DNA from: Protaetiibacter mangrovi
Lineage (GTDB): Bacteria; Actinomycetota; Actinomycetes; Actinomycetales; Microbacteriaceae
Direction of reading: 5' to 3'
Assembly (NCBI RefSeq): GCF_024752305.1
Contig: NZ_JANTHX010000008.1
Location: forward strand, 10,825 to 74,824
Length of the DNA: 64,000 nucleotides
Below the pieces are notes generated by a model. The model was not told the origin of the DNA, did no database searches, and saw nothing but the letters and a program-made list of their open reading frames with translations. Shown here piece after piece: positions 27,322-32,117 of this stretch; position 1 is the stretch's first letter, and each line of letters opens with the position of its first letter. The position numbers and the translations under genes are program-made.

Positions 27322-27470
27322 CGGACCGTTTGCGTCCCGAGGTTGCCTTCCGTGACCCCGTGTTGCGTCCGAGCGATTCCCAGGCGCCGCATAGACGCCG
27401 CCAGGGCTCGGATGAGGACGGCCTGGCTTCATGGGGGAGTCAGAAGCCCCACCGTCATCCGGGAGACCCC

Positions 27471-28055
27471 ATGGACCCGCTCCTCCTCGCCGCCGACCTC
27501 GTCGGAATCGCCCTGCTCGTGTTCGCGCTGTACTTCCCGCGCCACCGTCGGCGCGACCTCGTCGTCGCGTTCCTCACGGTCAACGTCGGTGTGCTCGCCG
27601 TGTCGATCGTGCTCGGCACCTCCGCGGTGGGGCTCGGGATCGGCCTCGGGCTGTTCGGGGTGCTGTCGATCATCCGCCTGCGCTCCTCGGAGATCGAGCA
27701 GCACGAGGTGGCCTACTACTTCGCCGCGCTCGCGCTCGGCCTCGTCGGCGGCCTCGGCTCCGCCACGCCGTGGGTGTCGCTCGGGCTCATGGCGCTCGTC
27801 GTGCTCGTGCTCGCCGTGGGCGACAGCCGGCTCGTGCTGCGCCGCTACCGGCAGCAGCTCGTCCGCCTCGACAAGGCCTACCCCGACGAGACGGCGCTGC
27901 GGGCCGCCCTCGAGCGCACGCTCGGCGCCCGCGTGCACCGGGTGACGGTACGCGAGCTCGACCTCGTCGACGACTCGACGCTCGTCGAGGTGCGCTACGA
28001 GGTGGTCGCCCCCGCGGTCGAGGCGCGGCGCCCGGCGCGGACGGAGAGCCGCTGA
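27471..28055 (+). CDS. DUF4956 membrane protein
   Basis: A 194-residue protein. Four hydrophobic segments fill residues 3-120 (VGIALLVFALYFP, AFLTVNVGVLAVSIVLG, GLGIGLGLFGVLSIIRLRSS, LGLMALVVLVLAVG). A soluble C-terminal domain of about 70 residues follows, with a ferredoxin-like pattern (VHRVTVRELDLVDDSTLVEV). IIRLRSSEIEQHEVAYYFAA is the conserved loop. The ATG has GGGAG 5 nt upstream. Its stop overlaps the start of the VTC-domain gene (TGATG), so the two products are made together and probably act together. DUF4956 has no established function. Confidence 0.85.
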   Translation: MDPLLLAADLVGIALLVFALYFPRHRRRDLVVAFLTVNVGVLAVSIVLGTSAVGLGIGLGLFGVLSIIRLRSSEIEQHEVAYYFAALALGLVGGLGSATPWVSLGLMALVVLVLAVGDSRLVLRRYRQQLVRLDKAYPDETALRAALERTLGARVHRVTVRELDLVDDSTLVEVRYEVVAPAVEARRPARTESR

Positions 28056-28816
28056 TGTCCGGCCTGCTGGCGCCGGGAGCGCTCCCCCCGATCACCCTCG
28101 ACGAGCTGCTCGAGCGTGCGGCGCTCCAGACCCGCGTCGACCGCAAGTACGTGCTGCCCCGCGCCGACGCCGCCCGGATGCTCGCGACCCTGGCGCCCGA
28201 GACCCGCGTGCTCGAGATCGACGGCGCACGCGGCGCGGTCTACGAGTCGGTGTACTTCGACACCGACGACCTGCTGAGCTACCGGATGGCGGCTCTCGGC
28301 CGCCGCCGGCGCTTCAAGCTGCGCACCCGCAGCTACCTCGACAGTGGTGACGCCTTCCTCGAGCTGAAGACCAAGGGTGCCCGCAGCGTCACCGTGAAGG
28401 AGCGTCTGGCCTACGAGATCGAGCACCGCGACGAGCTGACACCCGCGGGCATCGCCTACGCCGCACCGCCTCTCGTCGAGCTCGGGCTCGACGACCCCCA
28501 GCTGCTGCAGCCCACCCTCGTCACCCGGTATGTGCGCGAGACCCTCTACCTGCCGGGCTCCGGCAGCCGGGCGACCGTCGACACCGAGCTCGGCTGGGAG
28601 GCGGCGGCGGGCGAGCAGCTCGCCCTGCCCGACCTCGCGATCGTCGAGACGAAGTCGGCCGGCGCCGCATCCGAGCTCGACCGGCTGCTGTGGCGCAGCG
28701 GGCATCGACCGGCCCGGGTGTCGAAGTTCGGCACCGGGCTCGCGGCCCTTCGTCCCGATCTGCCCTCGCACAAGTGGAACCGCGTGCTGCGCCGGCATTT
28801 CGCGCACGCCGCCTGA
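28055..28816 (+). CDS. VTC-domain protein (polyphosphate polymerase-like)
   Basis: A 253-residue protein that is a single VTC domain, the tunnel-shaped catalytic fold of the eukaryotic vacuolar polyphosphate polymerase. Conserved basic and acidic positions are present: TRVDRKYVLP, ESVYFDTDDLLSYR, RRRRFKLRTRSYL, FLELKTKG, VKERLAYE, TRYVRETLYL, IVETKSAGA and VSKFGTGLAA. There is no SPX domain or membrane anchor; the DUF4956 partner may provide the latter. Start overlaps the DUF4956 stop. Synthesis of polyphosphate or another phosphate polymer is inferred; activity of bacterial stand-alone VTC proteins is poorly documented. Confidence 0.87.
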   Translation: MSGLLAPGALPPITLDELLERAALQTRVDRKYVLPRADAARMLATLAPETRVLEIDGARGAVYESVYFDTDDLLSYRMAALGRRRRFKLRTRSYLDSGDAFLELKTKGARSVTVKERLAYEIEHRDELTPAGIAYAAPPLVELGLDDPQLLQPTLVTRYVRETLYLPGSGSRATVDTELGWEAAAGEQLALPDLAIVETKSAGAASELDRLLWRSGHRPARVSKFGTGLAALRPDLPSHKWNRVLRRHFAHAA

Positions 28817-28841
28817 CGACCCCTCCCGGAAGGAGACCCCC

Positions 28842-30377
28842 ATGAAGATCCGCCGACCCGCCGTGCTCCTGTCGACCGCCGCCCTGGCGGCCGCGCTCGG
28901 CCTCACCGGATGCGCCGTCGCCGCGACGACGTCGCAGAACGGGCAGACCTCGACCGCGTCGACCGTGACCGTGCCCGACGACCTGAGCGCCGAGGCGATC
29001 CTCGCCGCGAATTCGGATGCGACGACCGTGAACGACGACGAGTGGGACGCGGCGGCAGCGGTCGACGTCGCGGCGTCCGCGGACACCGTCACGATCACCG
29101 AGGCCGGCGTCTACCGGCTCTCCGGGGAGTACCCGGGCGGCGTGGTCGTCGACGCGGGCGAGGACGCACTCGTCGTGCTGATCCTCGACGACGCCGACGT
29201 CTCGAGGTCCGACGGCCCCGCGATCCAGGTGACGAGCGCGGATGACGTGGGCATCTTCCTCGCGGACGGCAGTGCGAACACCGTGTCGGATGCCGGCACG
29301 AGCTACGCCGACGACGCGGAGTTCCACGCGGCCATCGCCTCGGACGCCGACCTCACCATCTCCGGTTCCGGTGCGCTCGCGGTCACCGCCGTCGACGACG
29401 GCATCTCCACGAGCGACGACCTCGTCATCCTGTCCGGCACGGTCGACGTCCACGCCGCCGACGACGGTGTGCGCGGTCATGACGCGCTCGTCGTGTCGGG
29501 CGGCGAGCTGACCGTGGACGCCGGAGGCGACGGCCTGAAGTCGAGTCAGGACGAGGACGAGACGCAGGGCTGGATCGAGATCGCCGGCGGCGCGATCGAC
29601 GTCACCGCGGCCGACGACGGGCTCGACGCGCAGACCGACATCGTCGTCACGGGCGGTTCGCTCACCGTCGACGCGGCCGACGACGGGCTGCACTCGGAGG
29701 TGGTGCTCGCGATCGACGGCGGCGACGTGACGGTCGCGGACTCGAACGAGGGCATCGAGAGCTTCACCATCTCGATCGCCGGCGGCACGGTCGACGTGAC
29801 CTCGAGCGACGACGGGCTCAACGCCTCGGGCGGCGACGCGACGGGCATGGGCGGCATGGGCGACGGCGGCCAGCTCATCTCGATCTCGGGCGGAACGCTG
29901 ACCGTCGACGCGCAGGGCGACGGGCTCGACTCGAACGGGTCGCTGGAGATGTCGGGCGGCACGGTCACCGTCTACGGCCCGACGGCGGACGGCAACGGCG
30001 CGCTCGACACCAACGGAACCCTCACGGTCTCGGGCGGCACGCTCCTCGCCATCGGCAGCTCGGGCATGGCCGAGACCCCCGACGCCGACTCGGAGCAGGG
30101 CTTCGTCTCGGTGAACGCGAGCGGTTCGGCCGGCCACACGGTGCAGCTGGTCGCATCCGACGGCACCGTGATCGCCGAGCTGACGGCGCTCAAGGAGTTC
30201 GGCAACGTCGTGGTCAGCACCGCGGACGTGGTCGACGGCCAGAGCTACACCGTGCTCGTCGACGGCGCATCCGCCGGCTCCGGCACGGCGGGTGAGGCGT
30301 CGACCGGCATGGGCGGCGGCATGGGCGGCGGTCAGATGCCCGGCGGCGGCCAGGGCGGCCCGGGTCAGCGCGGCTGA
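28842..30377 (+). CDS. Cthe_2159-like carbohydrate-binding beta-helix lipoprotein
   Basis: A 511-residue secreted lipoprotein: signal peptide with lipobox LTGC (Cys24), then a right-handed beta-helix with around ten repeats of the pattern DDGL...VxGGxxTVxA (for example ADDGLDAQTDIVVTGGSLTV). The helix resembles Cthe_2159-type proteins, reported to bind acidic polysaccharide and calcium. It is very rich in Asp and poor in Lys/Arg, fitting many Ca sites. The C-terminus is a Gly/Met/Gln-rich tail. GGAAGGAG precedes the ATG. It forms a set with DUF4956 and VTC genes 26 nt upstream. Confidence 0.85.
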   Translation: MKIRRPAVLLSTAALAAALGLTGCAVAATTSQNGQTSTASTVTVPDDLSAEAILAANSDATTVNDDEWDAAAAVDVAASADTVTITEAGVYRLSGEYPGGVVVDAGEDALVVLILDDADVSRSDGPAIQVTSADDVGIFLADGSANTVSDAGTSYADDAEFHAAIASDADLTISGSGALAVTAVDDGISTSDDLVILSGTVDVHAADDGVRGHDALVVSGGELTVDAGGDGLKSSQDEDETQGWIEIAGGAIDVTAADDGLDAQTDIVVTGGSLTVDAADDGLHSEVVLAIDGGDVTVADSNEGIESFTISIAGGTVDVTSSDDGLNASGGDATGMGGMGDGGQLISISGGTLTVDAQGDGLDSNGSLEMSGGTVTVYGPTADGNGALDTNGTLTVSGGTLLAIGSSGMAETPDADSEQGFVSVNASGSAGHTVQLVASDGTVIAELTALKEFGNVVVSTADVVDGQSYTVLVDGASAGSGTAGEASTGMGGGMGGGQMPGGGQGGPGQRG

Positions 30378-30408: not shown

Positions 30409-30825
30409 ATGATCTCGACGCGACTGGCCCGCGAGCTGCGGGATGCGGGGCTCTCCTGGACACCCGCATCCGGCGACGCCTTCCAGATCGGCGGCGGCGA
30501 GTTCGAGGGCGACGTCTTCACCGTGAGCGACATGACGATCGAGGCGCATCACTACCCGACCGGTTCGGTGCTCGGCTTCAACGGCACGACCGAGTGGGCC
30601 CTCGACTCGGTCGCCCTCGACGACGCGCTGTGGCTTCCCCGCGAGGAGCAGCTGCGGGAGCTGCTGCGGGGGTCCTTCCGCTCGCTCGAGCGGGTGCCGC
30701 AGGGCGCGGGAGCCCGCTACCGGGTCACCACCGAGCGCGCCGGGGTCGTCGTCGCGTTCGAGGCCGACGACGCCACCGAGGCCTACGGGGAGGCGCTGCT
30801 CGCCCTCATCCGCGCCGCGAGCTGA
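30409..30825 (+). CDS. small conserved-type protein of unknown function
   Basis: A 138-residue soluble protein without recognised domain. It begins MISTRLARELRDAGLSWTPA and contains a beta-rich middle (FTVSDMTIEAHHYPTGSVLG, FNGTTEWALDSVALDDALWL) and a helical end. The pattern suggests a compact alpha/beta fold. Similar proteins are sometimes labelled pilus assembly CpaE, but I see no P-loop and do not support that name. The start has CAGACT and a G-run upstream, but no clear ribosome site. Confidence 0.7.
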   Translation: MISTRLARELRDAGLSWTPASGDAFQIGGGEFEGDVFTVSDMTIEAHHYPTGSVLGFNGTTEWALDSVALDDALWLPREEQLRELLRGSFRSLERVPQGAGARYRVTTERAGVVVAFEADDATEAYGEALLALIRAAS

Positions 30826-30871
30826 GCGCGCCCCCGCCGCGGAGTCCGGCGCGCGGTGCACAATGGGCGCC

Positions 30872-31243
30872 ATGGACATCCCCGCGCTCGCCCCGTCGGT
30901 CGTCGTGCCGTTCCGCGTGACGGTCGGTGTGACCCTCGTCACCGCGTTCGCGGGCCTCGGCTTCGCGATCTACGAGCTCGTGGCCTCCGGATGGGGTGAG
31001 AGCTTCCTCTACGCCACCGGCCGCAGCCTCGTCTTCCTGTTCGTCGCGATCGCCGTGTCGATCGCGAGGTCCGCCTGGGGCGCCGTGCTCGCCGCGGCCG
31101 CCCTCGCGACGGTGAACGTGATCGACACCGTCATCGGGGTGATCCGCGCCGACGCCCTGTTCATCGTGGCGCCCCTCGTGCTCGCACTCGCGAGCGCGGC
31201 TTCCGCACTGTGGCTCAGCCGGGAGATCCGTCGGAGCCGTTGA
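30872..31243 (+). CDS. small four-helix membrane protein
   Basis: A 123-residue protein with four hydrophobic helices and short loops (VGVTLVTAFAGLGFAIYELV, SLVFLFVAIAVSIARSAWGA, ATVNVIDTVIGV, IVAPLVLALASAASALWL). No function is recognised. The ATG at 30872 is preferred over one 9 nt earlier because a CACAAT box ends 7 nt before it, fitting a leaderless start. Its last 29 nt overlap the end of the converging DUF4349 gene. Confidence 0.72.
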   Translation: MDIPALAPSVVVPFRVTVGVTLVTAFAGLGFAIYELVASGWGESFLYATGRSLVFLFVAIAVSIARSAWGAVLAAAALATVNVIDTVIGVIRADALFIVAPLVLALASAASALWLSREIRRSR

Positions 31244-32117
31244 CGGTTCCGGTCGCGGGCACGGTGGTCCGCGCGGTGCGCCCGGCCCGACGCGCGAGCA
31301 GCACGACCACGGTGAGCACGATCCCCAGCATCACGAGCCACGGCAGCCCGACGCCGACCCCGACGGCGATCGCCGCCCAGAAGCCCGCGAACGCGGCCCA
31401 TCCGGCCACGAGCCCCTCCCCGAAGGTCGTCGGGCCGTCGGGCGGCGGCGCGAGCGACGGCGAGATGAGCGAGAGCGTGATCGTCGACATGGCGACCTGG
31501 TCGGCGAGCTCGCGCTGCTCCGCCTCGAGCGACTCGAGCTGGGTCTGACGATCCGAGATGGCGGACTCGAGCGAGATGAGGTCGGCTGTGGTGTCGGCGT
31601 CGGCCAGCCACGTCGTGTAGCGGGCGATCGAGGCGCGCAGGGTCGAGATGCGGGTGTCGAGGTCGCGCTGACGGGTGCCGACGTCGACCGCGTCGAAGCT
31701 CGTCTGCTCGACGGTCCCGAGCTCGGCGAGCTGGGTGCGCACCTCCTCCACGGATGCCGCGGGGATGCGCAGGGTGAGGGTCGCGCTGCCGGCGTCGCCG
31801 TCGCGCGGCGCCGACTCCCGACGCGCGTCGACGCGTCCGCCGGCCCCGACGGCGATCGCGGTGGCACGCGCGGATGCGGCGATCGGGTCGTCGGCCGTGA
31901 TGGTGACGGTGCCGGTGATGACGAGCGCCTGGTCGGCGGCGGAGCTGCTCGAACCCTTGTCGTCCGCCGAGGCGCCGTCGGCGGCCTGGGGGGCGTACTC
32001 GGACGTCGTCCCGCCCGAGTCCGAGGCGCCGGAGTACCCGGCGGAGCATCCGGTGAGGGCGATGCCCGCCGCGAGGAGCGCGGCGAGGGCTGCTGTGCTG
32101 CGGGAGATGTGCCTCAT
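31215..32117 (-). CDS. DUF4349 lipoprotein
   Basis: A 300-residue envelope protein: signal peptide with lipobox LTGC (Cys24), a Ser/Gly/Asp linker, a DUF4349 domain (VITGTVTITADDPIAASARA onward), a coiled coil near residues 155-215 (LDTRISTLRASIARYTTWLA, AISDRQTQLESLEAEQRELA), and a C-terminal membrane region of two hydrophobic stretches (about 238-280). This layout is typical of DUF4349 proteins, whose role is unknown. TAGCGT (32124-32129) lies 6 nt before the ATG, indicating a leaderless message. Its 3' end overlaps the preceding gene by 29 nt on the opposite strand. Confidence 0.87.
   Translation of the reverse strand: MRHISRSTAALAALLAAGIALTGCSAGYSGASDSGGTTSEYAPQAADGASADDKGSSSSAADQALVITGTVTITADDPIAASARATAIAVGAGGRVDARRESAPRDGDAGSATLTLRIPAASVEEVRTQLAELGTVEQTSFDAVDVGTRQRDLDTRISTLRASIARYTTWLADADTTADLISLESAISDRQTQLESLEAEQRELADQVAMSTITLSLISPSLAPPPDGPTTFGEGLVAGWAAFAGFWAAIAVGVGVGLPWLVMLGIVLTVVVLLARRAGRTARTTVPATGTVNGSDGSPG

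Follow-up and report, generated by a model that had tools for sequence, protein, structure and literature searches.

Three genes lie close together on one strand of the window, the 64,000-nt stretch of Protaetiibacter mangrovi DNA analysed here. They encode a DUF4956 membrane protein, a protein with a VTC domain and a secreted β-helix lipoprotein of the Cthe_2159 family (Table 1). The stop codon of the DUF4956 gene and the start codon of the VTC gene overlap by 1 nt (TGATG), and a gap of 25 nt separates the VTC gene from the β-helix gene. The preliminary description had correctly placed and framed these three close or overlapping genes. Its suggestion that the first two are translationally coupled agrees with what is typical of the pair, since 29 of 34 loci, and 60 of 66 named loci from actinobacteria at large, have the two genes overlapping by 4 nt. 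An NCBIfam search returned no family for any of the three proteins. An FMN reductase gene lies upstream of the cassette on the opposite strand, and no family link to the cassette was seen for the flanking genes on either side in the window. Downstream are two small genes with no Pfam or NCBIfam match (30409-30825 and 30863-31243, both on the + strand), and a DUF4349 lipoprotein gene (31215-32117, - strand) that shows no tie to the cassette.

Table 1. Features of the cassette and of related loci in the source genome. Positions are those of the window unless a contig is named.
Feature	Position	Strand	Remarks
Degenerate triple 11-bp direct repeat, CCCAGGCGCCG / CATAGACGCCG / CCAGGGCTCGG	27379..27411	+	Candidate PhoP-type response-regulator box
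DUF4956 membrane protein, 194 aa	27471..28055	+	PF16316, E=3.3e-61, 206 bits (cut-off 30.6)
VTC domain protein, 253 aa, Vtc4-like, polyphosphate polymerase-type	28055..28816	+	PF09359, E=1.4e-22, 80.9 bits (cut-off 23)
Cthe_2159-family secreted β-helix lipoprotein, 511 aa	28842..30377	+	PF14262, E=1.2e-70
PhoP-like response regulator and histidine kinase	L192:5353-7475, source contig C3	-	Unlinked to the cassette
GT2-GtrA glycosyltransferase followed by a fused CotH kinase domain	L052:7099-9447, source contig C16	-	Adjoins NAGPA

The co-occurrence of the three families to which the preliminary description had looked was found in a survey of 248 genomes from the order. Of these, 83 carry VTC, 93 DUF4956, 78 Cthe_2159 and 40 CotH. 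VTC and DUF4956 occur jointly in 81 genomes, DUF4956 and Cthe_2159 in 75, and VTC and Cthe_2159 in 65. Fisher tests gave p=2e-49 for VTC with DUF4956 and 7e-42 for DUF4956 with Cthe_2159, both values being inflated by the kinship of the genomes. At the genus level, DUF4956 is found in all 40 genera that carry VTC; in a further three genera DUF4956 occurs by itself, and 43 genera lack both. A VTC gene lies near 86 of 98 DUF4956 matches, on the same strand in every case, and the named cassette loci span Agromyces and Cryobacterium to Streptomyces and Micromonospora. These data confirm that the three genes form a real conserved module, far beyond chance. Some loci depart from the simple layout: L044 carries divergent DUF4956-VTC pairs and L045 two tandem pairs. 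The DUF4956 and VTC genes of L045 are in frame, such that a read-through fusion is translatable; fused DUF4956-VTC proteins make up only four distinct alignment rows.

The AlphaFold2 (AF2) model of the VTC protein is of high confidence (pLDDT 94.3, pTM 0.91). When it was compared with the PDB using Foldseek, the best match was Vtc4 with a bound nucleotide analogue (E=4.7e-12, TM 0.64), and the 13 top-ranked solved structures were all VTC subunits. The ygiF and CYTH enzymes, other proteins of the TTM fold, also match the model, more weakly. Fourteen residues are invariant in 33 homologues (K31, R86, K88, R90, R92, E103, K105, K115, R117, R161, R172, E198, K200 and K224). The tunnel Lys and Arg residues and the metal-binding Glu of the window protein align with those of Vtc4, and invariant positions correspond to R264, R266 and E426, whose mutation inactivates the yeast enzyme (PMC9911596). 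Neither an SPX domain nor transmembrane (TM) helices are present in the protein, VTC being the sole Pfam domain found. It thus has a Vtc4-like tunnel fold, as modelled, with the corresponding residues, and is a candidate polyphosphate polymerase of predicted activity. The preliminary description had placed weight on nucleotide and phosphate binding; the predicted binding residues and the Vtc4 fold are both kept. PPK1 was found in the source genome and in 217 of the 248 genomes, which rules out VTC as a replacement for PPK1. Because the source genome already has PPK1, VTC would not be its general or bulk-storage polyphosphate enzyme.

The DUF4956 protein was modelled as five helices with a C-terminal α-β domain (AF2, pLDDT 79.8, pTM 0.57), and this domain gave weak Foldseek matches to ACT domains. 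Comparison of DUF4956 with MgtC by hhalign gave 77% for one DUF4956 alignment and 32% for another, with an MgtC alignment of just nine sequences and E-values of the pairwise kind, against 1.2% or less for controls consisting of VTC and six multi-TM families. This profile-level likeness spans the TM motif and the C-terminal domain. However, the window's DUF4956 protein is missed by the Pfam MgtC model (PF02308), which matches nothing anywhere in the source genome, and the relationship is distant at best. Neither the sequence nor the fold of DUF4956 retrieved a trustworthy PDB match for the TM domain, and no likeness to solved VTC subunits or polyphosphate channels was detectable by either route. 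We describe DUF4956 as having five predicted TM helices and an ACT-like domain, with a probable distant likeness to MgtC. A combined MgtC and ACT reading was published independently for the DUF4956 homologue of Streptococcus intermedius, SIR_1592 (PMC12345266, 2025). Among the conserved basic positions, H25, R69 and R71 are invariant and R24 and R27 nearly so; the loops that carry such positions would face the cytosol if the C-terminus does. The closest named relative, from Micrococcales bacterium 72-143, is 89% identical. A divergent DUF4956 subfamily, with 18-21% identity to that of the window, adjoins VTC and CotH in L046 and L047, with no PelG.

The pair resembles the yeast VTC complex (Vtc4/Vtc3/Vtc1; PMC9911596) in its Vtc4-like tunnel polymerase domain with catalytic residues and in a membrane partner whose basic loops are predicted to be cytosolic. 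Unlike in yeast, the VTC protein has neither SPX domain nor TM helices of its own, and the putative membrane partner is DUF4956, with five TM helices and an ACT-like domain, rather than Vtc1.

The closest solved structures to the third protein are those of Cthe_2159 from Clostridium thermocellum (4peu and 4phb, E=1e-32). It has a secretion signal with a lipobox (LTGC), the Cys24 of which is invariant in 15 homologues; many Asp residues of the protein are invariant too. The protein is strongly acidic, with 61 Asp and 19 Glu for only 3 Lys, and contains five DDG motifs. Ligand recognition by Cthe_2159 has been reported to need Ca2+ (PMC8746771). By analogy, the window protein, which shares with Cthe_2159 the PF14262 family, the β-helix and the acidic conserved positions, would bind polysaccharide in a Ca2+-dependent manner. 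It differs in being an anchored lipoprotein of an actinobacterium, encoded with DUF4956 and VTC. Two successive Cthe_2159 genes were seen in L043 and L115. Among 67 VTC genes of the named loci, the next gene encodes a Cthe_2159 protein in 40 cases and a secreted CotH kinase in 23, the hosts of the latter including Streptomyces, Micromonospora, Saccharothrix and others. All four third-slot CotH proteins that were scanned contain CHB_HEX_C together with a cellulose-binding CBM_2 domain. The slot after VTC is thus interchangeable, being filled by either a Cthe_2159 β-helix or a secreted CotH kinase.

The association with CotH extends beyond the cassette. All 40 genomes with CotH among the 248 also have DUF4956, even when the two are unlinked, and the same is true of 33 of 33 genomes with a stand-alone NAGPA, a set picked post hoc by score and frame length. 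In some relatives, NAGPA (phosphodiester glycosidase) and GT2-GtrA genes lie beside the cassette. In the source genome, CotH and NAGPA are on contig C16, unlinked to the DUF4956-VTC cassette; the GT2-GtrA-CotH fusion on this contig ties CotH to lipid-phosphate-sugar synthesis.

The preliminary description called the system possibly undescribed, which is only half right. The genes cotH, polyphosphate polymerase (PPP), DUF4956 and DUF4832 have been described as accessory genes of Gram-positive pel clusters, and in streptococci, clostridia and bifidobacteria the cotH/PPP/DUF4956 set adjoins pelDEADAFG (PMC7112168). A C. perfringens locus that combines VTC-type genes with CotH has been noted as well (PMC2879425). 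The set has been partly tested genetically: in S. intermedius, deletion of SIR_1592 (DUF4956) or SIR_1594 (CotH) lowered aggregation in artificial sputum by more than half and altered the amounts of Pel; the deletion of SIR_1593 (polymerase/VTC) does not figure among those for which either change is reported (PMC12345266). According to the same study, this three-gene arrangement was not encountered anywhere but at the Pel locus.

One lineage, family f20, has the cassette in a VTC-less form. DUF4956 and Cthe_2159 are both present in eleven of its genomes, and the two genes overlap by 4 nt in five cleanly called loci (L053, L054, L057, L060 and L061), with no room for a VTC gene between them. 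A sensitive VTC profile, for which two positive controls scored below 1e-101, found no match in twelve f20 genomes, several of them incomplete assemblies. Because f20 keeps DUF4956 and Cthe_2159 without VTC, polyphosphate cannot be the whole story and the core function would be independent of VTC. Together with the Streptococcus genetics, this lineage points to a separate function of DUF4956 and its secreted partner.

The region upstream of the cassette was compared with that of relatives. The pattern CAYAG-N6-CAYAG, an 11-bp direct repeat, precedes the DUF4956 gene at 36 of 116 loci, compared with 8 of 1132 other genes, an enrichment whose significance is optimistic as the pattern was picked after viewing the alignment of upstream regions. 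In M. tuberculosis, the PhoP box consists of TCACAGC direct repeats with a 4-bp spacer (PMC4832192), and the relatives share with it the 11-bp spacing and a CACAG/CATAG core. The window box, in contrast, is degenerate: its middle unit only is canonical. The strict pattern CAYAGN6CAYAG has no site anywhere in the source genome, and the sequence preceding the unlinked NAGPA-CotH locus has no clean box. Members of the OmpR/PhoP family, of varying closeness, were found around the cassette at a number of loci, and PhoP-like ones adjoin it at several. In Arthrobacter agilis (L152), the cassette-adjacent regulator is closest to PhoP among solved chains. The source genome has a PhoP-like regulator too, at 246794-247501 of contig C3, 62% identical to the one near the A. 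agilis cassette. Judging from these repeats and regulators, the cassette is probably under PhoP-type two-component control in relatives; such control may, as a working hypothesis, extend to the window cassette.

Our tentative preference, held at somewhat less than even confidence, is that the cassette is an envelope or matrix module in which a membrane-coupled phosphate-chain polymerase serves a secreted surface effector. The cytosolic, Vtc4-like VTC protein would make phosphate chains from nucleoside triphosphate, and DUF4956, with its five TM helices and MgtC-like character, would hold it at the membrane. A physical complex of the two is favoured because of the overlapping genes, the near-exclusive co-occurrence and the Vtc4-like active site. 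The product of VTC, or a regulatory signal derived from it, would then serve the effector, which in the window would be the Ca2+-dependent, polysaccharide-binding β-helix lipoprotein and elsewhere the secreted CotH kinase with its cellulose-binding domain. The phosphate polymer may be exported, its direction across the membrane being presumed outward, and a role of the module in the matrix or in adhesion is plausible. The wider system would comprise CotH, the phosphodiester glycosidase and the GT2-GtrA glycosyltransferase for lipid-phosphate-sugars, and would be switched on in relatives, probably, by a PhoP-type two-component regulator. The surface role proposed in the preliminary description gains support from the lipoprotein, from secreted CotH in the same slot and from the aggregation phenotypes of the DUF4956 and CotH homologues (PMC12345266). 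However, TTM folds include triphosphatases and cyclases, the polymerase activity of VTC is a prediction, and DUF4956 could not be linked to any solved polyphosphate channel. Moreover, since f20 dispenses with VTC and the S. intermedius VTC deletion is not listed with changed aggregation or Pel, polyphosphate as the core function is weakened.

A second reading is one that we judge rather unlikely, although it comes closest to the first. Here the cassette would be a regulatory or homeostasis module: DUF4956 would control ATP, phosphate or divalent cations in the manner of MgtC, VTC would be an auxiliary subunit handling phosphate or triphosphate, and the acidic β-helix would, on the same signal, bind divalent cations or polysaccharide at the surface, with no polymer exported. 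The distant MgtC likeness and ACT-like domain, the corresponding published reading of SIR_1592, the dispensability of VTC in f20 and the PhoP-type repeats in relatives all point this way. However, outside f20 the co-occurrence of DUF4956 with VTC is near-perfect and their genes overlap, and PF02308 finds nothing in the source genome. The function of MgtC is itself debated.

The fold of VTC also leaves room for another activity of TTM proteins: VTC could hydrolyse inorganic triphosphate or, as a nucleotide cyclase, produce a second messenger, and in this way regulate matrix export through DUF4956. This would accommodate the weaker matches to ygiF and CYTH enzymes and the tolerated loss of VTC in one lineage. 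We nevertheless consider it improbable, as VTC subunits take all of the first 13 places among the structural matches, headed by Vtc4 with its nucleotide analogue, and the counterparts of the positions that inactivate Vtc4 when mutated (PMC9911596) are invariant.

Membership of the Pel exopolysaccharide system, as an accessory part, would account for the cotH/PPP/DUF4956 set beside pelDEADAFG (PMC7112168), and one genome of the 248, G152, does show the pel-linked cotH/polymerase/DUF4956 layout. This genome is, however, the only one of the 248 with full-length PelG; no PelG was found in the source genome or near the cassette at any other fetched cassette locus. Pel membership was rejected on these grounds and is very unlikely. 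The Pel-only statement of PMC12345266 does not hold for these families, the cassette being almost always Pel-free. The cassette resembles the Pel accessory set SIR_1592-1594 in having DUF4956 beside a VTC-type polymerase, a secreted third gene and the same predicted MgtC-like TM and ACT-domain architecture. It differs from that set in several ways: the source genome has no pel operon, the third gene of the cassette encodes a lipoprotein of the Cthe_2159 family, CotH lies elsewhere in the genome as a GT2-GtrA fusion, f20 has a form that lacks VTC, and relatives carry PhoP-type repeats. Finally, that three unrelated genes merely lie side by side can be dismissed given the order-wide synteny and co-occurrence, and nothing was found in its favour.

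The envelope-module reading has a bolder form, to which we give little credence at present: non-Pel bacteria would have a machine equivalent to the yeast VTC complex but built of two proteins, DUF4956 and VTC, which would synthesise a phosphate chain and pass it to the outside, as phosphate donor for secreted CotH kinases or as a Ca2+-bridged glue held by the β-helix lipoprotein. If this were true, the outward-threaded chain would constitute an extracellular phosphate-polymer system that builds the cell surface. The cassette offers a clean test for membrane-coupled, exported bacterial polyphosphate, and bears on the question of which phosphate donor secreted CotH kinases may use outside the cell. 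Whatever its mechanism, a gene set supposed to be an extra of Pel biofilm operons is a surface module in its own right, found in many actinobacteria; its secreted effector can be either a β-helix or a CotH kinase, and a natural variant lacks VTC.
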